This document shows, piece after piece, positions 10,022-37,670 of a stretch of 56,338 bases of DNA. The notes beneath the pieces are model-generated. The model was not told the origin of the DNA. It made no database searches and saw only the letters and a program-made list of their open reading frames with translations. The position numbers and the translations under genes were made by a program. Position 1 is the stretch's first letter. Each line of letters begins with the position of its first letter. Source of the DNA: Terriglobales bacterium (GTDB taxonomy: Bacteria; Acidobacteriota; Terriglobia; Terriglobales; Acidobacteriaceae); NCBI GenBank assembly GCA_035457425.1, contig DATIBR010000099.1:1-56338 (forward strand), read 5' to 3'.

Positions 10022-10350
10022 GCCCGCCGCTCGCGGCTGGCGGCGTGCGGCGCAGTCGAGCCGCGGCTCGCCGCTCGCCGCGACCCGCCGCCCGCCACGC
10101 TGGATCATGCCCGCCCCTATTCCCAAAAGGTAACCTCCGTAACCTTGGGAATCAGCGGGTCTCGTGATACGCTGCGGGCCACATTCAAGGCAGTTCCCCT
10201 CGAAGTAAGGCGTGGAATGCGTCGCGGACCCTCATCCTTGGCGTCACGGTTCCGTTCGTGTGGACGTGGTCTAGGCGAGGTTGGCGGGCACCATCGGTGT
10301 TAGGGCGCCGGGACTCCACGGGGGACTAGCCAAGGAGCGAGCAGCCCAGG
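10022..10350 (+). other. 329-base intergenic region before the cyclase gene
   Basis: The first 80 bases are low-complexity repeats of CGCCGCTCG type. An inverted repeat and candidate promoter occupy 10120-10173. The remaining about 175 bases would be a long GC-rich leader; I see no recognisable riboswitch or ORF in it. Confidence 0.5.
10120..10173 (+). promoter_or_regulatory. Inverted repeat with GTAACC direct repeats overlapping a promoter
   Basis: TTCCCAA (10120-10126) and TTGGGAA (10145-10151) are inverted copies. Between them GTAACC occurs twice, 10 bases apart. TTGGGA (10145-10150) could be a -35, with TACGCT (10168-10173) 17 bases later as a weak -10. One helical turn between the repeats suggests a regulator site. 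Confidence 0.4.
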
Positions 10351-12612
10351 GTGGCATTTTCATTCCTCCAACGCGGGAATCCCGCCGACCACGCGCGGCG
10401 GATGAGCCTCTCCACCTACACGCCGGCGCTCACGTTGAGCGACCTGCAGCTCGGGGTCGACAACATCCGGCACGACGTGTGGCTGAGCCCGAAGATGTGC
10501 GAGGTGGCGCGCTTCCACATCGGCAAGCTGGTCGCCAAGCACGGGCAGGTCGAGGACATGGTGGCGGAAGACCCGCTCGCCGCCCCGCAGGCGCCGCGCC
10601 CCAGCAACAAGATGATCGGGACGCCGGGCGGAGCCCCCAAAGCGCCCCCCAAGCCCCCCGACGCCGGCGACTTCAAGCGCCTGCTGGCCGACCTGCACAT
10701 CGCGGCGCTGAACCGGGCGAAGTCGGAGGAGAACGTCTCGGTCGACCTGCTGGCGCGGCTGGCGTGCGTGAAGTTCCTGCGCAACGAGATCCTGCAGCAG
10801 TACACCCAGGTGCTGGAGCGGTGCCGCGCCAAGCTGAAGAGCATCGAGGGCCTGCGCCACACCACGCCCAAGCACGTGGAGATGCGCGAGCGCTTCTGGC
10901 GCTTCCAGGTGGGGAAGAAAGCGGTGCTGCGGCGCGTGGGCCAGGAGATGTTCGCGACGCTGCGCGAGATCGAGAAAGAGACGCTTGCGCGCATGCGCCG
11001 TTCGCTGTTCGGCGAGGCGGCGGCTGCCAGCTATGACCTGTTCACCAACCGGCTGATCTTCACCGAAGACGGGCGCGACGACTACCTCAACGCCGAGCAC
11101 TACGTCATGCTCGGCAACTACGAGCGCGATCCCGACCGCTTCCAGACGATGCAGGAGATCGCCATCGAGTTCCTGAAGTCGCTCGACCTAATCAAGGACC
11201 TGAGCGAGGGCGAGCACACGCTCGACGCCGTGCTGAACTCGCCCGAGAACGCGCAGGAACTGATGGCGGGCGGGACGCCGAACGAGGCCGACGACAAGGG
11301 CAGGGCGCAGAAGGCGCTGGTCGGCTTCTGGGTCGAGGCGCTGGAGTCGAAGAACGTGATGCAGCACGTCATCGCGTCGTACGAAGCGGTGCCGCTGCTG
11401 GGGCAGTACTCTCCGCCCATCAACGCGCAGCAGCTCAAGAACGCGCTCATCTCGCGCACCGAGCGCAAGCGTGTGGAGACGCTGCTGGAAGAGCACGGCA
11501 AGATCTCGCCCGACAACCTGAACGCCGCGGTGAAGAAGGTGGAGGCCTGCAAGGGCAACGACCGCGCCAAGATGGCGGGGCGCTTCCTGGTCGATTTCAT
11601 CCGCTACCACCGCGACCTGCGCCGGCTGGAGTGCCTGGTGGCGGCGATGGACGCCGTCAACGTCATCCTCAACGACAAGCTGCGCGAGCTCTCGGCCATC
11701 AACAACACGCTCTACGACTTCCTGCTGCCCGACGAGCAGAAGCCGACCGAGGAGAAGGTGATCCACCACGTCGTCATCAAGGCCGACGTGCGCGACTCCA
11801 CTACCCTCACCCGCACGCTCTATGAGCGCGGGCAGAACCCGGCTTCGTATTTCAGCCTGAACTTCTACGACCCGGTGAACCGGCTCGTCGCGCAGCACGG
11901 CGCGACCAAGGTGTTCATCGAGGGCGATGCCGTCATCCTGGCGCTGTTCGAGCGCGAGGGCGAGCCCGGCTTCGGCGTCGGCCGCGCCTGCGTGCTGGCC
12001 AAGGAGATCGTCGAAGTCGTCCACGCCTACAACCAGAAGTCGCTGGCCGCCGGCCTGCCGGCGCTCGAGCTCGGCATCGGCGTCTGCTTCCAGGATTCGC
12101 CCCCCATGTACCTGATGGACGGCTCCACGCGCATCATGATCTCCAAGGCCCTCAACGAGAGCGACCGGCTCTCGTCCTGCACCAAGGGCGCGCGCAAGTT
12201 CATGACCGCGGGCGACACGCTCTTCAACGTCTATTCGTTCCAGAGCGTCGACGACGAAGACACCGGCGGCATGCCGGAAGAGTTCCTCGTGCGCTACAAC
12301 ATCGGCGGCGTCAACATCAACCAGTCCGCCTTCGAGAAGCTGAAGAAGGAGATCTCGCTCCAGCCGCACGAGCTGAAGCTGCCCATGCTCTACGGCGAGG
12401 AGATCGTGCGGCTCTACAGCGGGCTGGTGCCGCTGCCCTCGGGCTCGTTCCAGCGCATCGTGGTGCGCGAAGCGCGCACGCCGCACATCGACGCCCGCGA
12501 CTTCTCGCTCAAGCACTGGACCGACCGGCCGTACTTCGAGGTCTGCACCAACCCTGCCATCTACGAGTACCTGGAAAGCGGCCTGGCCGCCCAGGCGACC
12601 ACCGGCGACTAG
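10351..12612 (+). CDS. Large protein with class III adenylate/guanylate cyclase domain
   Basis: A 753-residue cytoplasmic protein. About 470 residues of helical sequence precede a catalytic domain of class III nucleotide cyclase type (about residues 470-680). It shows KADVRDSTTL with the first metal-binding Asp, FIEGDAVILALF with the second, GIGVCFQDSP before the last strands, and NESDRLSS where the transition-state Asn/Arg pair is expected. A C-terminal 70-residue tail follows. The product is therefore probably cAMP or cGMP, but base selectivity cannot be read. The N-terminal part matches no domain I know and may sense a signal. Start is uncertain: GTG at 10351 (AAGGAG 13 bases upstream) or ATG at 10402 (51 bases shorter). 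Proteins binding cyclic nucleotides are encoded at 19.7, 20.7 and 32.1 kb. Confidence 0.75.
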   Translation: MAFSFLQRGNPADHARRMSLSTYTPALTLSDLQLGVDNIRHDVWLSPKMCEVARFHIGKLVAKHGQVEDMVAEDPLAAPQAPRPSNKMIGTPGGAPKAPPKPPDAGDFKRLLADLHIAALNRAKSEENVSVDLLARLACVKFLRNEILQQYTQVLERCRAKLKSIEGLRHTTPKHVEMRERFWRFQVGKKAVLRRVGQEMFATLREIEKETLARMRRSLFGEAAAASYDLFTNRLIFTEDGRDDYLNAEHYVMLGNYERDPDRFQTMQEIAIEFLKSLDLIKDLSEGEHTLDAVLNSPENAQELMAGGTPNEADDKGRAQKALVGFWVEALESKNVMQHVIASYEAVPLLGQYSPPINAQQLKNALISRTERKRVETLLEEHGKISPDNLNAAVKKVEACKGNDRAKMAGRFLVDFIRYHRDLRRLECLVAAMDAVNVILNDKLRELSAINNTLYDFLLPDEQKPTEEKVIHHVVIKADVRDSTTLTRTLYERGQNPASYFSLNFYDPVNRLVAQHGATKVFIEGDAVILALFEREGEPGFGVGRACVLAKEIVEVVHAYNQKSLAAGLPALELGIGVCFQDSPPMYLMDGSTRIMISKALNESDRLSSCTKGARKFMTAGDTLFNVYSFQSVDDEDTGGMPEEFLVRYNIGGVNINQSAFEKLKKEISLQPHELKLPMLYGEEIVRLYSGLVPLPSGSFQRIVVREARTPHIDARDFSLKHWTDRPYFEVCTNPAIYEYLESGLAAQATTGD

Positions 12613-27812: not shown

Positions 27813-28379
27813 ATGCGTTCCCTAGCCATTTCCGGGGTGCTCTCTGCCTTGCTGCTGGTGTGCCCGGCGTTCGCCGCCGGCCCGGCAGGGAAGGAGAAGC
27901 CCGCCGACCCGGCGCTCGCCGCGTTCGAAGGTCGCCTCAACGACTTCCTGAAGCTGCGCGACGAAGCGGAGCGGGCGTCACCGCACATCGACGGCAAGAG
28001 CAAGCCGGAGGAGATCACCGCGCACCGCCGGCAGCTGGCCGAGGAGGTCCGGAAGCGCCGTCCGACCGCGCGCGTGGGCGACGTCTTCGGCGCGGAGCTG
28101 ACCGCGCGCATCGGCAAGGTGATGGCGGCGTACCTGGGGCGCCGCGCCAGCCCCGAGCGCCGCGCCGTTGAAGATGACAAGCCGGAGCAGATCGAAAAGA
28201 AGATCATGGTGAACGGCCCATACCCGGCGGACGGCCGCGCGATGATGCCGCCCGACATCCTGAGAGTCCTGCCGCGTCTCCCCGACGGCCTCGAGTACCG
28301 CTTCGTGCAGGATGACCTGCTGCTGGTCGACACCCGCTCGCAGCTCGTCATCGACCTCGTCCCGAGAGCGCTGCCGTGA
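27813..28379 (+). CDS. Secreted hypothetical protein
   Basis: A 188-residue protein I cannot assign. MRSLAISGVLSALLLVCPAFAAG is a signal peptide. The mature part has a helical segment (FEGRLNDFLKLRDEAERASP), a basic region, and ends with YRFVQDDLLLVDTRSQLVIDLVPRAL, a strand pattern often seen at the end of small periplasmic proteins. Its stop overlaps the start of the metallophosphoesterase gene (GTGA), so the two are co-translated and likely work together. Confidence 0.65.
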   Translation: MRSLAISGVLSALLLVCPAFAAGPAGKEKPADPALAAFEGRLNDFLKLRDEAERASPHIDGKSKPEEITAHRRQLAEEVRKRRPTARVGDVFGAELTARIGKVMAAYLGRRASPERRAVEDDKPEQIEKKIMVNGPYPADGRAMMPPDILRVLPRLPDGLEYRFVQDDLLLVDTRSQLVIDLVPRALP

Positions 28380-29260
28380 AGACGCTCCGCCGCGCCGCTC
28401 TCGCGCTCCTGCTGCTGGCGCTGTCCGCCTCGGCCCAGCAGCCGCAGCTTCCCGCCGGCAACGACGCCGTCCGCTTCGCCGTCATCGGCGACACCGGCAC
28501 CGGCGACAAGCACCAGTACCAGATCGCAGAGCTGCTGAAGAACTATTACGACCGTTACCCGTTCGACTTCGTCCTGATGATGGGCGACAACCTCTACGGC
28601 GGCGAGAGCCCCGACGACTACGAGAAGAAGTTCTCCCGTCCGTACCAGCCGTTGCTCGAGAAGGACGTGAAGTTCTACGCCGCGCTCGGCAATCACGACG
28701 ACCCCGCGCAGCGCTTCTACGAGAAGTTCAACATGGGCGGCAAGCGTTACTACACCTTCAAGAAGGGCGACGTCCGCTTCTTCGCGCTCGACAGCACCTA
28801 CATGGACCTGGAGCAGCTCCGCTGGCTGGAGGCCGAGCTGCAGAAGAGCAACGACCGGTGGAAGATCTGCTTCTTCCACCATCCGCTGTACTCCTCCGGC
28901 AAGCGCCACGGGCCGGACATCGAGCTGCGCCAGGCGCTCGAACCTCTGTTCCTGAAATATGGTGTGAACGTGGTCTTCGCCGGTCATGAGCACTTCTACG
29001 AGCGCATCCGCCCGCAGAAGGGGATCTACTACTTCATTGAGGGCGGCTCCGCGAAGCTGCGCGAAGGCAACATCGGGTCGCGCTCCGAGTTCACCGAGAA
29101 GGGCGAAGACCAGGACAACACCTTCATGGTGGTCGAGATCGAGGGCGATTCGCTGAACTTCCAGACCATCCGCCGCGACGGCCAGACCGTCGACGCCGGC
29201 GTGCTGCCCCGGCTGGTCAACGGCCAGCCCGTCCGCGCCACCCAGGCCGCGGTGAAGTAA
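28376..29260 (+). CDS. Secreted metallophosphoesterase (calcineurin/purple acid phosphatase-like)
   Basis: A 294-residue enzyme with signal peptide MKTLRRAALALLLLALSASA. All metal-binding blocks of calcineurin-like phosphatases appear in order: AVIGDTGTGD, MMGDNLYGG, ALGNHDD, FFHHPLYSSG and FAGHEHFYER. The fold and GDNxY spacing resemble tartrate-resistant acid phosphatase. It should hydrolyse phosphate esters in the periplasm; the substrate is unknown. GTG start overlaps the stop of the preceding gene. Downstream at 29.35 kb lies a nucleotide-transporter operon with a kinase-like secreted protein, which gives a possible functional link. Confidence 0.88.
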   Translation: MKTLRRAALALLLLALSASAQQPQLPAGNDAVRFAVIGDTGTGDKHQYQIAELLKNYYDRYPFDFVLMMGDNLYGGESPDDYEKKFSRPYQPLLEKDVKFYAALGNHDDPAQRFYEKFNMGGKRYYTFKKGDVRFFALDSTYMDLEQLRWLEAELQKSNDRWKICFFHHPLYSSGKRHGPDIELRQALEPLFLKYGVNVVFAGHEHFYERIRPQKGIYYFIEGGSAKLREGNIGSRSEFTEKGEDQDNTFMVVEIEGDSLNFQTIRRDGQTVDAGVLPRLVNGQPVRATQAAVK

Positions 29261-29352: not shown

Positions 29353-32145
29353 GTGCCAGAGCTGCACCTCAGCGACCGTTTCCGCTCCGCCTTCGGCCTG
29401 CGCCGCGGCGAGGGCCCCACTGCGTTCGCCTTCTTCGCCTATTTGGTGCTGGTGATCAGCTGCTACGTGATCTCCAAGTCGGTGCGCGACGCGCTCTTCA
29501 TCAGCCGCTTCGGCGCCTTCAAGCTGCCGTACATGTACATCGGCATCGCCGCCATCGCCGGGGTGTTCGTCTCCATCTACATCCGGCTCGCGCGTCGCGT
29601 CTCGCATGAAAAGCTCGTCTCCGGCACCCTGGTCTTTTTCGCCGTCAACCTTTTCGTCTTCTGGTGGCTGCTGCGCTTCAAGTTCGGGTGGCTCTACCCG
29701 GCGATCTACTTCTGGGCCGGCATCTTCGGCGTCATCGCGCCCATGCAGGTCTGGACACTCTCCAACTTCATCTACACCACGCGCCAGGCGAAGCGGCTCT
29801 ACGGCTTCATCGGCGCCGGCGGCATCCTGGGCGCGGTTATCGGCGGCTTCTTTTCCAGCGAGGCGGTGAAGCGCATCGGCACCGACAACCTGCTGCTCGC
29901 CATCATCCTGTTCATCGCCGTCTGCGTGGTGCTGGTGAACTTCATCTGGCGCACCGGACGCCGGGCGAGCGCGGACGAGCGCGAGGCGCCGCGGCAGCCG
30001 CAGAACCTGCGCCAGAGCCTTGCCATCATCCTGAAGTCCCGCTACCTCACGCTCATCGCGGTGGTCATCACGCTGTCGCAGGTCGTCTCCACCGTCATCG
30101 ACTTTCAGTTCAAGGCGGTCGCGGAGCAGATCTATCCCGCCAAGGACCAGCTCACTCACTTCTTCGGCTCGTTCTACGGATACCTCGGCATCCTCTCCTT
30201 CATCCTGCAGATCTTCTTGACCAGCCGCCTGTTGCGCCGGCTGGGCGTCGGGATCGCGCTGTTCATCTTGCCGCTCGCAGTGGGCGCGGGCTCGCTGGCG
30301 CTGCTGGTGTGGACCGGCCTGGCAGCCGCGCTCGCCGCCAAGGGCCCCGACCAGCTCCTCAAGCACTCGGTGGACAAGAGCGCGAGCGAGCTGCTCTACC
30401 TGCCGGTCGCCAGCGACATCAAGCCGGCGGTGAAGTCGTTCATCGACACCGTGCTGTGGCGCATCGCCGACGCCTCCGCCGGCGCGCTGGTGCTGGGCCT
30501 GACGGCGATCGCCGGCCTCAGCGTCCGCGGCGTCAGCGCGGTGACGCTCGGCATCATCGGCGTCTGGATGGTCGCGCTGATGGCGGTGCGCTACCGCTAT
30601 CGCGACGCGCTGCGCGCGGCCCTCGCGGAAGGCGGTTTCGGCCTCGATGCGCGGCCGCCGGTCGACGTTCGCGACCCCGAGACCGCCGTCACGTTCATCA
30701 AGAGCCTGCACAGCCGCAACACGGAAGACGTCCTCTATGCGCTCGAGATCATCCGCGCCACGCGCGCCGGAGGCACCGTGGTGCCGCACGTGCAGCGCCT
30801 GCTGACGCACGACTCCGAGGCCGTGCGCGCCGCCGCGCTCGACGCGCTCGCCACCACCGGCGACCGCCGCGTCGCCGAGAAGCTGACGCCGCTGTTCGAC
30901 GACGAGTCGCCCAAGGTGCGCGCCAAGGCGATGCACATCGCGCGCAAGTTCGGCAAGCCGGTACCCAAGAAGCGCGTGCTGCGCTACCTGCGCGAGACCA
31001 ACTACCGCCTGCGCGGCGCGGCCATCGTGTGGGCGCTCGATCGCCGCGCGAAGCAGGGCCATCACGCACTCGCCACCCGCGCGCTCGAGAGCCTGCTGCG
31101 CAGCACCAACGAAGGCGCGCGCAAGGAAGCGGCCCGCGCCCTCGGCTCGCTGCGATCGCTCGAGGCCGTGCACGAAGCGCTCGCGCTGCTGCTTCAGGAC
31201 CCCTCGCGCGAGGTCGTCCACGAGGCTCTGCGCAGCGCCGGCACTCTCGCGCATCCGGAACTGGTTCCGCTGATCGTACCGCACCTTGCCACGCACAGCG
31301 CGCGCTCCGCCGCGTGCGCCGCGCTGGCGCAATGCGGGCCTGCCATCCTCGAGCGCCTGCGGCACTATGTGCTCGAGCCGGGACACGACGCCGCCATCCG
31401 GCGCGGCGTCGTGCGTGCCCTCGCCGCCATGGGCGCGCAGCCGGCCGTGGACCTCCTGCTCGAGGCGCTGGCCTCCGGCGACCGCGAGCTGCGGCCCGCC
31501 ATCGTGCACGCGCTCAGCGCCGCGCGTGCGCGCCATCCCGAGCTGCAGGTTTCGGAAAAGGCCATCCGCCACGAGCTCGAAGCCGAGCTGCGCGAGTACT
31601 ACGGGACGGTGGTGCTGCTACAAGCCGTCGCCCCGGCCACGGACGACGAGTCGGAGCGCACCCCCGAGTTGCTGGAGGCGACCTTGCAGCAGCGCCTCGC
31701 CGCCTCGCTGGAGAACGTCCTCCGGCTGCTCAGCCTGCTGCATCCCGCCGAAGACCTGCTGCGCATCTACCGCGGGCTTTCCAGCAAGGACCACGCGGTG
31801 CGCGCCAACGCGGTCGAGTTGCTCGAGCAGTTGCTGCCGCAGGAGATGAAGCAGGTCGTGCTGCCGGCGCTCGACGAGGAGATGGCGATGGGCGCGCGCC
31901 TCGCGTGCGCGGAGCGGCTGGGCATCGCGCCGCCCGAAAGACGCGAGGCCGCGCTCGCCGAGCTGCTGCGCTCGCCTTCGCCGGCGGTTGCGCTGGCCGC
32001 GCTCGACGAGGTTGCCGGCAAGCGCGTCGCAGAGCTGTACGACAGCCTCGAAGAACTTGCGCGCGGAGAGGAGCCGCTGGTCGCCGCGACCGCGGCGTCC
32101 GTGCGCGAAAGACTCGCTCCACCACCACAACGGAGGATCGCATGA
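29353..32145 (+). CDS. ATP/ADP-carrier-type nucleotide transporter fused to HEAT repeats
   Basis: A 930-residue protein. The first about 415 residues have 12 predicted membrane helices of the plastid/rickettsial NTP/NDP exchange (TLC/Npt) type: AYLVLVISCYVISKSVRDAL, FGVIAPMQVWTLSNFIYT, YGFIGAGGILGAVIGG, DFQFKAVAEQIYP, DKSASELLYLPV, VKSFIDTVLWRIADASAG. Residues about 430-925 are helical repeats of HEAT type with many R/D-A-A-A-L units (EAVRAAALDALATTG, KVRAKAMHIARKFG). Such transporters are famous from intracellular bacteria, but HEAT fusions occur in free-living phyla, where direction and substrate are untested. Weak ribosome binding site; GTG start. The stop overlaps the next start (ATGA). 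Confidence 0.75.
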   Translation: MPELHLSDRFRSAFGLRRGEGPTAFAFFAYLVLVISCYVISKSVRDALFISRFGAFKLPYMYIGIAAIAGVFVSIYIRLARRVSHEKLVSGTLVFFAVNLFVFWWLLRFKFGWLYPAIYFWAGIFGVIAPMQVWTLSNFIYTTRQAKRLYGFIGAGGILGAVIGGFFSSEAVKRIGTDNLLLAIILFIAVCVVLVNFIWRTGRRASADEREAPRQPQNLRQSLAIILKSRYLTLIAVVITLSQVVSTVIDFQFKAVAEQIYPAKDQLTHFFGSFYGYLGILSFILQIFLTSRLLRRLGVGIALFILPLAVGAGSLALLVWTGLAAALAAKGPDQLLKHSVDKSASELLYLPVASDIKPAVKSFIDTVLWRIADASAGALVLGLTAIAGLSVRGVSAVTLGIIGVWMVALMAVRYRYRDALRAALAEGGFGLDARPPVDVRDPETAVTFIKSLHSRNTEDVLYALEIIRATRAGGTVVPHVQRLLTHDSEAVRAAALDALATTGDRRVAEKLTPLFDDESPKVRAKAMHIARKFGKPVPKKRVLRYLRETNYRLRGAAIVWALDRRAKQGHHALATRALESLLRSTNEGARKEAARALGSLRSLEAVHEALALLLQDPSREVVHEALRSAGTLAHPELVPLIVPHLATHSARSAACAALAQCGPAILERLRHYVLEPGHDAAIRRGVVRALAAMGAQPAVDLLLEALASGDRELRPAIVHALSAARARHPELQVSEKAIRHELEAELREYYGTVVLLQAVAPATDDESERTPELLEATLQQRLAASLENVLRLLSLLHPAEDLLRIYRGLSSKDHAVRANAVELLEQLLPQEMKQVVLPALDEEMAMGARLACAERLGIAPPERREAALAELLRSPSPAVALAALDEVAGKRVAELYDSLEELARGEEPLVAATAASVRERLAPPPQRRIA

Positions 32146-32606
32146 CCACGAGCACAACCCTGCGCGACGCGGCCGGACTGAACGTGCTCGACAAGATGAA
32201 GAGCCTGCGCCGCGCGCAGATCTTCGCCTACTGCACGACCGAACAGTTGCTGAAGATCGCCGGCATCGCGCAGGAAGTCCGCTTTGCCGCGGGCGAGGAC
32301 ATCTTCCGCGAAAACGATCCCGGCGACGCGCTCTTCCAGATCGTTTCAGGGCGCGTCCGGCTCAGCAAGCCCGCCGCCGACTTCGAAGCGGTGCGCACCG
32401 AGGACGAGACCTTCGGCACGCTCGCCATCCTCGACCGCAGCGAGCGCGAGTCCAACGCCACCGCCGAGGAAGACACGCTTGCGCTGCGCATCGATGCGGC
32501 CGAGTTCCTCGAGGTCCTCGCCGAAAACCCCGAGATCGTCCAGGGACTCTTTTCCGCGCTCACGCGCGAGATCCGTGACTATCGCTATGGGTACCTCCGT
32601 GGCTGA
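32142..32606 (+). CDS. cNMP-binding domain protein
   Basis: A 154-residue single cNMP-binding barrel without DNA-binding domain: LRRAQIFAYCTTEQLLKIAG, VRFAAGEDIFRENDPGDALF, SGRVRLSK, then a weak cassette (EDETFGTLAILDRSERESNA) in which the family GE and R/TA residues are poorly conserved. It may have lost nucleotide binding. It is coupled to the transporter by ATGA overlap and overlaps the barrel gene by 20 bases, so it probably regulates the transporter or HEAT domain. Confidence 0.75.
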   Translation: MTTSTTLRDAAGLNVLDKMKSLRRAQIFAYCTTEQLLKIAGIAQEVRFAAGEDIFRENDPGDALFQIVSGRVRLSKPAADFEAVRTEDETFGTLAILDRSERESNATAEEDTLALRIDAAEFLEVLAENPEIVQGLFSALTREIRDYRYGYLRG

Positions 32607-33903
32607 GGCCCGCTCCATCGCGCGCGTGGCGCTGGTCGTCGCGCTGCTGGCGACGGCCGCCTGGCCGCAGGCGGCGTCGCAGGCCGGCGCCCCGGAGCAG
32701 GGTGCGCCGCGCCGGCGCATCGTGGACAAGTCGAAGTTCCCGCCGAAGCAGAGCGCGGTGCGCAAGGTCTTCATGGCGCCGGTGCGCCTGCTGAATCTTC
32801 CCATCGAAGGCGTCGCCAACATGGCCGGACACCTTCCCGCGGGCGCTTTCGGCGACAACAAGGACCGGCTCGCGACCGGCCATCACCATCTGCACAAGAA
32901 GTTCATGTACGGCGGGCTGGGCGAGGGCTCGGGCATCGGCGGCGGCTTCTCGGTCTCGACCGCCGACCTGCTCTCGCGCGACTTCGAAGCGTCCGCCGCG
33001 GTCGCCGCCACCCTGCGCCGCTACTTCGACACGCGCGCGCGCCTGACCTACGACCCCACCGGCGGCCACAAGCGCACCTTCCGCCTCATCGCCGCCGGCC
33101 GTTACCAGATGCGCCCGCAGGAGGACTTCTCGGGCATCGGGGCGTTCTCGTCCGAGTTCGATCGCACGACCTTCGACCAGCAGGAGCGCAGCGCGCGCCT
33201 CGGCGCGGAGCTCCAGCCGCACCGCCGCGTGCAGCTCGGCGCGGGCGTGGACTACTCCAGCACCAGCATCTTCCCCGGCAGGGACGAGCGCTTCCCGACG
33301 ACGCAGGCGCTGTTCACCCCCGCGGAGGTGCCGGGCCTGGCCGGCGGCCAGCTCTTCGGGCCGTACGCCTCGCTGGAGCTCGACGCACGCGACGCCGCCG
33401 ACGATCCCCGCGCCGGCGCCTGGGTCGGATTCGGCGTCGCTGACAACTGGAGCGTCGACCGCCAGGCCTTCGCCTTCACCTCGTATCGCATGGACGGCCG
33501 AACGTATCTCCCGCTCGGCACCAAGCGACGCGTCATCGCGGTGCGCGTCCTCGGACTGTTCAACGACCCGCGCGGCGACCGCGCTGTGCCGTTCTTCCGC
33601 ATGGCGCGACTGGGCGATTACGAGACGCTGCGCGGATATCCGTCGTATCGCTTCTACGGCAACAATGCGCTCGCCGGCAGCCTGGAGTATCGCTGGCAAC
33701 TGGTCGAGCAACTGCGCGCGTTCCTCTTCGCGGACTTCGGCCAGGTCTTCAACGGGCTCTCTGAGCTGCGAGCCGACAACCTGCGCGCGACCTTCGGCGG
33801 CGGCTTCGAGGCGCGCCCCGCAAAGCAGTTCACCTTCCGCATCTTCGTAGGGAAGAGCCCGCAGGAGACGCGCCTCTTCCTGAAGCTCAACCGGGGGTTT
33901 TAG
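32587..33903 (+). CDS. Omp85-like outer-membrane beta-barrel protein
   Basis: A 438-residue protein with signal peptide (SIARVALVVALLATAAWPQA). The body alternates amphipathic strands; ETLRGYPSYRFYGNNALAGS then LEYRW is the LRGY hallmark of Omp85/TamA barrels, and the chain ends in Phe after FLKLNRGF, as required for BAM-dependent insertion. No POTRA repeats are evident in the about 90 residues before the barrel, so it is not BamA itself. The ATG at 32587 is used here; a GTG at 32599 also gives a complete signal peptide. It is in the operon with the transporter and secreted kinase-like protein. Confidence 0.75.
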   Translation: MGTSVAEARSIARVALVVALLATAAWPQAASQAGAPEQGAPRRRIVDKSKFPPKQSAVRKVFMAPVRLLNLPIEGVANMAGHLPAGAFGDNKDRLATGHHHLHKKFMYGGLGEGSGIGGGFSVSTADLLSRDFEASAAVAATLRRYFDTRARLTYDPTGGHKRTFRLIAAGRYQMRPQEDFSGIGAFSSEFDRTTFDQQERSARLGAELQPHRRVQLGAGVDYSSTSIFPGRDERFPTTQALFTPAEVPGLAGGQLFGPYASLELDARDAADDPRAGAWVGFGVADNWSVDRQAFAFTSYRMDGRTYLPLGTKRRVIAVRVLGLFNDPRGDRAVPFFRMARLGDYETLRGYPSYRFYGNNALAGSLEYRWQLVEQLRAFLFADFGQVFNGLSELRADNLRATFGGGFEARPAKQFTFRIFVGKSPQETRLFLKLNRGF

Positions 33904-33906
33904 GCC

Positions 33907-35274
33907 ATGGACCTCTTCCACACATCGCGAGCTGCTCTGGCGGCGCTGCTCCTCGTTCTCGCGCTGCCGGCGCTCGCGCAACAGAAGCCGGGCGAGCCTC
34001 CGCTCTGGCTCGACTACGACATGGAAGACATCAAGGAGCCCAAGGAGCTGAAGACGCTCGACGTCATCGAGTTCCTCGACGGCACGCTGTGGGAGCAGAT
34101 CAGGCAGTCCTTCGACTTCCCGCGGCAATATCGCTACGTCACCGACCAGGAGAAGGAGTCGTACAACGTGAACTCGGTCGACGAGGTGCCCGACTCCTCG
34201 TGGTTCACGAACCGCAACGGGCGGCGCGCGATGTCGCTCGACGAGATCCGCCGCGGACCCAATCGCGGCACCGGCCCGGCGCCGGGGAAGCTCCTTGTCA
34301 CCAAAGGGAAGGCCGCCGGCGTGGGCAGCGGCTTCTGGATCAAGGATGAGCGCGGCGACAGCTACCTGCTGAAGTTCGACCCGCCGGACTTCCCGGAAGT
34401 CGCGACCGCGGCCGAGGTCATCAGCACCAAGCTGTTCTACGCCATCGGCTACAACGTGCCGGAGAACTACCTGTTCTACTTCCGGCCGGAGCAGCTCCAG
34501 CTCGCGCCCGACGCCAAGCTCACCATGCGCGGCAAGAAGCGCGCGTTCAAGCAGGAAGACCTCGACCGCATCCTCGCCCTGCTGCCGCGCCGGCCTGACG
34601 GCGCCTACCGCGCCGTCGCCAGCAAGATGCTGCCGGGCAAGCCGAAGGGCGGCTTCCGCTTTACCGGTGTTCGTGAGGACGACCCCAACGACATCATCCC
34701 GCACCAGCACCGCCGCGACGTCCGCGCGCTGCGCATCTTCGCCGCCTGGCTGAACGACTACGACATCCACACCGCCAACACGCTCGACATGTTCGTGGAA
34801 GAAGGCGGCCGCCACTTCATCCGCCACTACGTCTTCGACTTCGGCTCCACCCTCGGCAGCGCCGGCAACACCATCAAGCCGCAGTGGGCGGGCTTTGAGA
34901 ATCGTTTCGACCTGAAGGAAGCGGGCAAGGGCCTAGCGACCCTCGGCGCATACCAGCCGCCTTCCACGCAGCATCCCATTCCGGTAGAGTTCCCGAGCGT
35001 CGGGCGCTACTCGGCGGACGGGTTCGACCCGCTGGCGTGGAAGCCGACCTTCCCGGTCATCGCGTTCGAGAATCTCACGCTGCGCGACGCGCGCTGGGCG
35101 GCGCGCATCGTCGGGTCGTTCACCGACGAGCAGATCCGCGCGGCGGTCGCCACCGGCGAGCTCTCCGATCCGGCGGCGGCGGAATATCTCGCGCGCCAGA
35201 TCATGGCTCGGCGTGACAAGACGGTGCTGCGCCTGCTGCGGCCGCTCGTGGTCGCCTCCGAGCCGAATCCCTAG
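33907..35274 (+). CDS. Secreted protein with HipA/Fam20-like kinase motifs
   Basis: A 455-residue protein with signal peptide (AALAALLLVLALPALAQ). No family name known to me, but kinase-fold landmarks appear in order. A glycine-rich turn (KGKAAGVGSGFWIKDERG) leads into DSYLLKFD with Lys156 as candidate ATP-binding lysine. Glu170 in ATAAEVIS is the candidate salt-bridge partner. FYAIGYNVPENYLFYF resembles the HipA N-lobe end. LNDYDIHTANTLDM (Asp286, Asn291) matches the HipA catalytic D-x-H-x-x-N. VFDFGSTLGS (Asp311) takes the DFG place. If active, it would phosphorylate a substrate outside the cytoplasm. It is last in the transporter/cNMP/barrel operon and ends 4 bases inside the converging gene. 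Confidence 0.6.
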   Translation: MDLFHTSRAALAALLLVLALPALAQQKPGEPPLWLDYDMEDIKEPKELKTLDVIEFLDGTLWEQIRQSFDFPRQYRYVTDQEKESYNVNSVDEVPDSSWFTNRNGRRAMSLDEIRRGPNRGTGPAPGKLLVTKGKAAGVGSGFWIKDERGDSYLLKFDPPDFPEVATAAEVISTKLFYAIGYNVPENYLFYFRPEQLQLAPDAKLTMRGKKRAFKQEDLDRILALLPRRPDGAYRAVASKMLPGKPKGGFRFTGVREDDPNDIIPHQHRRDVRALRIFAAWLNDYDIHTANTLDMFVEEGGRHFIRHYVFDFGSTLGSAGNTIKPQWAGFENRFDLKEAGKGLATLGAYQPPSTQHPIPVEFPSVGRYSADGFDPLAWKPTFPVIAFENLTLRDARWAARIVGSFTDEQIRAAVATGELSDPAAAEYLARQIMARRDKTVLRLLRPLVVASEPNP

Positions 35275-36306: not shown

Positions 36307-36395
36307 GCCGGGATGGCGGAACTGGCAGACGCAGCGGACTCAAAATCCGCCGGGCCTCACGGCCCTTGCGGGTTCGACCCCCGCTCCCGGCACCA
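36307..36395 (+). tRNA. tRNA-Leu (anticodon CAA)
   Basis: An 89-nt class II tRNA. The acceptor arms GCCGGGA (36307-36313) and TCCCGGC (36385-36391) pair perfectly, the discriminator is A and CCA is encoded. The anticodon stem GCGGA/TCCGC encloses CTCAAAA, giving anticodon CAA, which reads UUG. A long variable arm (GGGCC TCAC GGCCC) and GGTTCGA T-loop are present. Confidence 0.95.
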
Positions 36396-36401
36396 GATCC
36401 C

Positions 36402-37670
36402 TCACTCTTTGACGGCTTCCGCCGCGATGGCGGGCGCTCCGGCGGCCGGCGTCTGGCGCAGGCGCGCCAGCGCCTCACGCGTGTCTTTGTCCTTCGGCGT
36501 GCGCTGCGCGAAGAAGCTCAGCAAGTCGGCGCGCAGGGGCGCGTCGAGCGTGCGGAAGCGCTGCTCGTTCAGCGTGCGCAGCAGCTTGTCGTAGACGCGG
36601 TCGGTGCGCGCGTACTCGCCCGGGCGCGCCAGCGCGCCGGTATCGCAATCGTAGTCGGCGAGCGTGATGGGCACGCCCTTGCGCAGCTCCGCGAGCCGCG
36701 CGCGGAAGTGATCGAGCGTGGTGTTCATGCTTTCGAAGTACATGTTCTCGGTCACGGCCGTCGGGTCGCGGTACTTTGCCGCGCGGAACGGGCCGATCTT
36801 CGGCACCAGCCGCACGAAGAACGCCAGGATCTTCGCGCCCAGCCCGGGCTTCTGGTACTTCGTGCCCCACTCCTTCTCGTAGTCGGCGCGCGACAGGTTG
36901 TAGAGGAACTTCTTCTCGTCGAAGTCCTTGAACTCGTGCATCATCTGCGGCTTGCGCGTGGCCAGCGCCACCTGCGTGAGGTGCGGGATGGTCTGGCTCA
37001 CCGCGTGCCGGTAGGTCGCGACGGCCAGGCCCTGGTGCGTCATCACGTCTTTCAGTTCGAGCCCGTAGGTCTCGCGGAAGGCGCGCTCCAGCAGTTCCTC
37101 CGCGACCTCGAAGCCGATGAAGTCGTGATACTGCTTGGGCGCGTAGCGCGCTTTCGCGACTTGCAGCACGTCGAAGCCGAACTCCGTCTCCAGGTGCGCC
37201 GACTTCGCCTGGTCGTACGTGATGACGTCGCCGAACCGCCGCCGCAGCTTGGGATACTCGAGCGCGACGGCGCGGTTCACCGTCGGGTGGCCGTGGATGT
37301 CGGAGACGTAGTGCGCGAGCGCGCCTACCGCGAAGGCGTATTCATTCAGCGTCTGCGCGTCCTTCAGCAGCGCGACCACGAAGTCGCCGCTGCGCACGTA
37401 GTGCACCAGGTCGCTGAAGAAGGGGGACCCGAACGGGTAGTACCCCAGGTCCTGGATCACGCATCCGCCGAAGGCGTAGGCCTCGGCTGCCTTGATCTCG
37501 TCGGGCGTGGCGTGCGGGAAGCGCGCGCGCAGCAGCGGCGCGATCGAGTCGTTCCATGCCATGTCGATGACCTGCTCGTGGCTGAGCACCGAGTAGGCCG
37601 CCGCCGGCGGGCACACCACCCCCAGGCACAGTACGCACAGCAGCAGGGCGGCCAGGGACCGGCGATACAT
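36402..37670 (-). CDS. Zinc-dependent phospholipase C family protein
   Basis: A 422-residue secreted protein. MYRRSLAALLLCVLCLGVVC then PPAAAYSV is a signal peptide. The zinc-dependent phospholipase C pattern follows: SVLSHEQVIDMAWNDSIAPL, AFGGCVIQDLGYYPFGSPFF, SDLVHYVRSGDFVVALLKDA and FAVGALAHYVSDIHGHPTVN, containing the histidines and aspartates that would hold zinc. C-terminal about 250 residues are specific to this subfamily. Likely acts on phospholipids or phosphodiesters outside the cytoplasm. Its end is 6 bases from the tRNA on the other strand. Confidence 0.8.
   Translation of the reverse strand: MYRRSLAALLLCVLCLGVVCPPAAAYSVLSHEQVIDMAWNDSIAPLLRARFPHATPDEIKAAEAYAFGGCVIQDLGYYPFGSPFFSDLVHYVRSGDFVVALLKDAQTLNEYAFAVGALAHYVSDIHGHPTVNRAVALEYPKLRRRFGDVITYDQAKSAHLETEFGFDVLQVAKARYAPKQYHDFIGFEVAEELLERAFRETYGLELKDVMTHQGLAVATYRHAVSQTIPHLTQVALATRKPQMMHEFKDFDEKKFLYNLSRADYEKEWGTKYQKPGLGAKILAFFVRLVPKIGPFRAAKYRDPTAVTENMYFESMNTTLDHFRARLAELRKGVPITLADYDCDTGALARPGEYARTDRVYDKLLRTLNEQRFRTLDAPLRADLLSFFAQRTPKDKDTREALARLRQTPAAGAPAIAAEAVKE

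Follow-up and report, generated by a model that had tools for sequence, protein, structure and literature searches.

How could a protein with the hallmarks of a kinase act outside the bacterial cytoplasm, where ATP is usually assumed to be absent? This question is raised by an open reading frame at 33907-35274 (+) in a 56,338-nucleotide stretch of DNA from a Terriglobales bacterium (Acidobacteriota), the whole of which is referred to here as the window. The original prediction, made from sequence alone, held that this gene encodes a secreted protein carrying HipA/Fam20-like kinase motifs, namely a candidate Gly-rich loop, Lys156, Glu170, DIHTAN (286-291) and DFG (311-313) in kinase order. Using a combination of profile searches, alignment-based structure prediction, gene neighborhood comparison and genome-scale co-occurrence analysis, we find that the observation holds, that the kinase reading is supported by predicted fold and conservation, and that most of the interest lies in the operon context, which the original prediction missed.

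Results

An exported protein family with conserved kinase motifs

The reading frame starts with ATG, encodes 455 residues and is unique in its genome. Residues 1-24 (33907-33978, +) form a signal-peptide-like segment ending in LALPALA before QQ, with a helix at residues 6-24 in the structural model described below. Searches with the single sequence gave no meaningful match in Pfam, NCBIfam, PHROGs or PDB sequences, and scans of viral contigs and a first scan of genome contigs with the single sequence found no relative. Forty near relatives of the window genome lack the gene and near relatives mostly lack it, so its distribution is patchy. A search of 396 genomes of the phylum, however, found it in 61 genomes, with two further weak matches left out, and a profile-guided scan of named genomes found 260 relatives, of which 80 were kept, including Zixibacteria, Latescibacterota, Calditrichota, KSB1, Poribacteria, Marinimicrobia, Gemmatimonadetes and Deltaproteobacteria records. 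The protein belongs to a large unnamed family found in Acidobacteriota and several other phyla. Most relatives are 540-590 aa long and carry a further conserved C-terminal domain of ~100 residues (NPLDxF...W...FDN...VGIER), probably a beta domain, that the window protein and a few close relatives lack.

The motifs are not chance matches. In 73 aligned sequences, K156 (34372-34374, +), the presumed ATP-anchoring lysine, is K in 70 and E in 3; E170 (34414-34416, +), the presumed helix-C glutamate, is E in 59 and D in 8; in the catalytic loop D286-I-H-T-A-N291 (DxxxxN; 34762-34779, +), D286 is D in 72 and N291 is N in 72; and in the metal-binding D311-F-G313 (34837-34845, +), D311 is D in 73 and G313 is G in 73. 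The candidate nucleotide-binding loop, residues 135-143 (34309-34335, +), reads KAAGVGSGF in the window protein and K-x-x-G-I-T-P-G-F in the family, with G138 invariant (73/73) and G142 conserved in 68/73. Among the highly conserved columns near the active site, the window protein stands out at position 284, which is His in 67/73 members but Asp here, and at S141, where the family has Pro. In a first alignment, three relatives carry Glu and one carries Gln at the K156 position although D286 and D311 are kept, and together with the variation at E170 this means that some members may be inactive or act differently.

A hydrophobic N-terminal export segment is present in 69/73 members, 21 of which have a lipobox beside it. 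While this assignment rests on a simple heuristic rather than SignalP, the two kinds of export signal in relatives agree on an extracytoplasmic location.

The predicted fold matches kinases of the HipA/Fam20/PI4K/CotH group

Structure prediction from the single sequence failed (pLDDT 34.9), but with 72 relatives as alignment, AlphaFold2 gave a model with mean pLDDT 93.8 and pTM 0.90. Strands 129-134, 142-146 and 152-156 followed by helix 165-180 give the expected N-lobe order, with the candidate loop between the first two strands, K156 ending the third strand and E170 in the helix. A fold lacking kinase N- and C-lobes, which would have refuted the original prediction, was not observed. The best PDB hits in a Foldseek search include CtkA, HipT, PI4KII-alpha and Fam20C, and structural alignment with VIA-align 2 gave Z scores between 10 and 14.6, with CtkA at 14.6 (rmsd 4.0, 233 aligned), DrFam20C1 at 13.4, PI4KII-alpha at 12.9, CotH at 11.8, HipT(Lp) at 11.3 and HipA at 11.0. 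The closest solved structures are all kinases of the clan named in the original prediction or its neighbors.

The window protein has no match at E<=10 to HipA_C (PF07804), HipA_2 (PF20613), Fam20 (PF06702) or CotH (PF08757). Among 27 relatives, 14 hit HipA_2 weakly (best 8e-4) and one hits HipA_C at 8e-5, whereas none matches the Fam20 or CotH profiles at E<=1. A profile-profile comparison with eight loci matching HipA_C was not significant, though one of the extracted reading frames was probably the wrong one. In contrast to HipA toxin-antitoxin modules, which are cytoplasmic and paired with HipB, the protein carries a signal-peptide-like segment and no HipB or HipS partner was seen. Fam20C is a secretory-pathway kinase of the same fold group (Z 12-13.4) and CotH a bacterial one, but the protein studied here differs from Fam20C in being bacterial and paired with Omp85 and NTT genes, and from CotH in its partners, which include an ATP/ADP translocase gene of its own.

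The predicted kinase is the last gene of a tight operon

Five genes run in one direction in the window. A secreted calcineurin-like metallophosphatase of 294 aa with a signal-peptide-like start (28376-29260, +; PF00149, E 2.5e-22) is followed by an ATP/ADP translocase (NTT/TLC) fused to HEAT repeats, 930 aa (29353-32145, +). The latter matches PF03219 at E 8.6e-19 (68.1 bits versus a cut-off of 21, the best stretch covering positions 136-363 of 491 of the profile) and HEAT_2 at 8.6e-28, and aligns with the solved ADP,ATP carrier 9j3n (E 3.3e-10) and the chloroplastic 9j3j (E 1.3e-7). A cNMP-binding-domain protein of 154 aa (32142-32606, +; PF00027, E 2.9e-16) starts in the ATGA overlap with the NTT-HEAT gene and overlaps by 20 bp the start of an Omp85-superfamily barrel of 438 aa with a signal-peptide-like start (32587-33903, +; PF01103, E 2.6e-11, 44.1 bits versus 24), which in turn ends 3 bp before the predicted kinase. 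No POTRA domain was matched in the four Omp85 partners scanned, without a predicted structure; in this respect the barrel may resemble the Omp85 proteins without N-terminal extension ('noNterm', PMC4104836), but it appears as the dedicated partner of one exported kinase. NTT-HEAT fusions followed closely by a cNBD gene, the architecture and gene order seen here, were described in free-living bacteria by Major et al. 2017 (PMC5381601), with no known function, and we found there no link to exported kinases, phosphatases or Omp85. Promoter and terminator scans of the operon were uninformative. Just downstream of the region lies a tRNA-Leu (anticodon caa; 36307-36395), and the window also encodes a Zn-dependent phospholipase C domain protein with a signal-peptide-like N-terminus (36402-37670, minus; PF00882, 7.5e-20).

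Omp85 is directly upstream of the kinase gene, on the same strand, in nearly every locus with room for it, with gaps mostly between about -110 and +280 bp that include overlaps, and a profile of the barrel finds it in all but a few of the loci, mainly short contigs. The phosphatase family is found in 15 named loci and the NTT family in 28, in tallies that count the window too. In two Zixibacteria loci and one Electryonea locus the order is Omp85, kinase, phosphatase, NTT, NTT-HEAT, with variants in Latescibacterota and KSB1; one Latescibacterota locus has two Omp85-kinase pairs followed by NTT, phosphatase and NTT-HEAT. In a further locus, L119 (L numbers denote the loci compared), a cNMP-binding domain fused to a histidine-kinase ATPase domain (10046-11422, minus) lies directly upstream of the Omp85-kinase-NTT operon.

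NTT genes co-occur with two exported kinase-like families

With the general Pfam model, NTT genes are found in 49/61 genomes with the kinase gene and 53/335 without it (p 6e-23). This first count missed 9 of 12 kinase-bearing genomes, which were recovered by a profile of NTTs taken from kinase loci, giving 58/61 versus 97/335 (odds ratio 47, p 1e-23) over 25 families and 38 genera. While a profile built from kinase-linked genes could favor kinase genomes, the general model alone already gives the association. The 3 of 61 genomes without a detected NTT possibly reflect assembly gaps. There are 32 NTT-kinase pairs within 15 kb against 0.9 expected at random, and 11 kinase genes have the NTT next downstream on the same strand within 500 bp; these linkage counts are lower bounds. 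In kinase-bearing genomes of other groups reached through named loci, 26 of 26 have an NTT. Genomes were sampled one per species and many are incomplete, and the co-occurrence counts are not phylogenetically independent.

We next looked at NTT genes in genomes without this kinase. In four of six such loci they lie near a different family of exported kinase-like proteins of ~280 aa with a ...YEIAAYxLDxLLGLNxxPP...NEDRxxxN...LIDHSRSF pattern, usually with a secreted metallophosphatase (L115, 1013-3538 and 5974-6819, minus; L113, 3-740, minus; L116, 9740-10639, plus; L117, 9543-11420, minus); in L117 phosphatase and kinase are fused in one exported protein. In L114 and L117, NTT-HEAT genes are followed by a response-regulator receiver-like gene, with a secreted metallophosphatase nearby. 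The best members of this second family match PI3_PI4_kinase at 4.5e-6, Fam20C at 0.002 and HipA_2 at 0.004 in Pfam and TIGR03843 at 2.6e-12 in NCBIfam, and their catalytic loop aligns with that of the first family (local E 0.03). The family is found in 43/80 NTT+ genomes that lack the first kinase and in 0/80 NTT- genomes (p 9e-17; 39/76 and p 7e-16 when the four seed genomes are excluded), and within taxonomic families present on both sides p is 2.7e-6. The empty result is meaningful because the same query detected the family in 43 genomes of the NTT+ set. Of 112 such genes, 55 have an NTT within 15 kb, with 97 pairs versus 1.5 expected. By contrast, cytoplasmic HipA_C is equally common with and without NTT (17/80 versus 18/80, p 1.0), leading us to reject the idea that the association reflects HipA-fold kinases in general. 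Conversely, 97 NTT+ genomes lack the first kinase and about half of those tested lack the second family too, so NTTs have other roles as well; a more divergent NTT group (E about 1e-42 to 1e-74) occurs in genomes of three families with neither kinase family.

Discussion

Taken together, our observations show that exported kinase-like proteins of these two families are rarely found without an ATP/ADP translocase, and the simplest reading is one of supply. We posit, with moderate confidence, that the window protein is an extracytoplasmic kinase working in the periplasm or at the outer membrane, as part of a module that solves the problem of having no ATP there. In this model the NTT-type translocase exchanges cytoplasmic ATP for periplasmic ADP, driven by the cytoplasmic ATP/ADP ratio as a kinase consumes ATP outside, with its HEAT and cNMP-binding parts probably regulating it. 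The Sec-exported kinase, held at or passed through its partner Omp85 barrel, would bind ATP between its two lobes through K156/E170, D286/N291 and D311 and phosphorylate a substrate of the periplasm, outer membrane or cell surface; since the fold group contains protein, glycan and lipid kinases, a surface lipid or glycan is as likely as a protein. ADP would return through the NTT, and the secreted metallophosphatase would remove the phosphate or recycle nucleotides. Catalysis, direction of transport, location relative to the outer membrane, substrate and the roles of Omp85 and phosphatase are inferred here, and the NTTs are only ~21-45% identical to that of the window and far from characterized ones; their specificity and direction cannot be read from sequence.

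Other explanations appear less likely but are not excluded. The strict Omp85-kinase pairing, with the Omp85 gene first and almost always adjacent, together with the description of Omp85 relatives such as FhaC and PlpD as protein translocases (PMC4104836), could indicate a two-partner-like secretion pair in which the kinase is exported through the barrel to the cell surface or medium and acts on extracellular targets or neighbors using environmental or leaked ATP, the NTT link being indirect. We consider this unlikely, given that no POTRA domain was matched in the Omp85 partners scanned, that 21 members look like lipoproteins, that NTT co-occurrence is near absolute, and that the second family has the NTT link although no Omp85 gene was found in the six kinase-free loci examined. 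Similarly doubtful is a pseudokinase or nucleotide sensor that binds periplasmic ATP/ADP and gates the Omp85 barrel or signals without phosphotransfer, or a kinase-fold enzyme with another chemistry such as AMPylation or glutamylation. Such chemistries do occur on kinase folds, as in the polyglutamylating bacterial pseudokinase cited in PMC7948968, and the replacement of K156 in 3/73 members and of H284 by Asp in the window protein would be compatible with them; yet the near-invariance of D286, N291, D311 and G313 is a pattern expected of metal-dependent phosphotransfer, a secreted phosphatase lies in the same operon, and a phosphatase-kinase fusion exists in the second family (L117).

Least likely in our view is that the NTT imports nucleotides scavenged outside, with the phosphatase and kinase-like protein belonging to a nucleotide or phosphate salvage system. 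Characterized NTTs of parasites do import ATP (PMC5381601) and secreted phosphatases fit phosphate scavenging, but free-living bacteria probably lack a rich external ATP source, the fold is that of protein, lipid or glycan kinases, and the dependency is one-sided, secreted kinases of the first family occurring without NTT in only 3 of 61 genomes and those of the second in none of 80 NTT- genomes.

While the parts belong to known families or folds, the kinase families themselves and the system they form appear to be new, and we found no published description in the open-access literature searched, which excludes most subscription journals and preprints. In its broadest form, which we consider somewhat more likely than not, our hypothesis is that many free-living diderm bacteria run a periplasmic ATP economy, in which NTT translocases export ATP in exchange for ADP to power at least two distinct families of exported HipA/Fam20/PI4K-clan kinases, opposed by secreted phosphatases. 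This would be a bacterial counterpart of the eukaryotic secretory-pathway kinases. A conserved operon joining exported kinases, an ATP/ADP translocase and a secreted phosphatase would overturn, for a wide set of phyla, the usual assumption that ATP-driven phosphorylation does not occur in the bacterial periplasm. It would also give a function for the uncharacterized NTT-HEAT(-cNBD) transporters and offer a reason why free-living bacteria carry NTT translocases, whose presence is often seen as a hallmark of an intracellular lifestyle.
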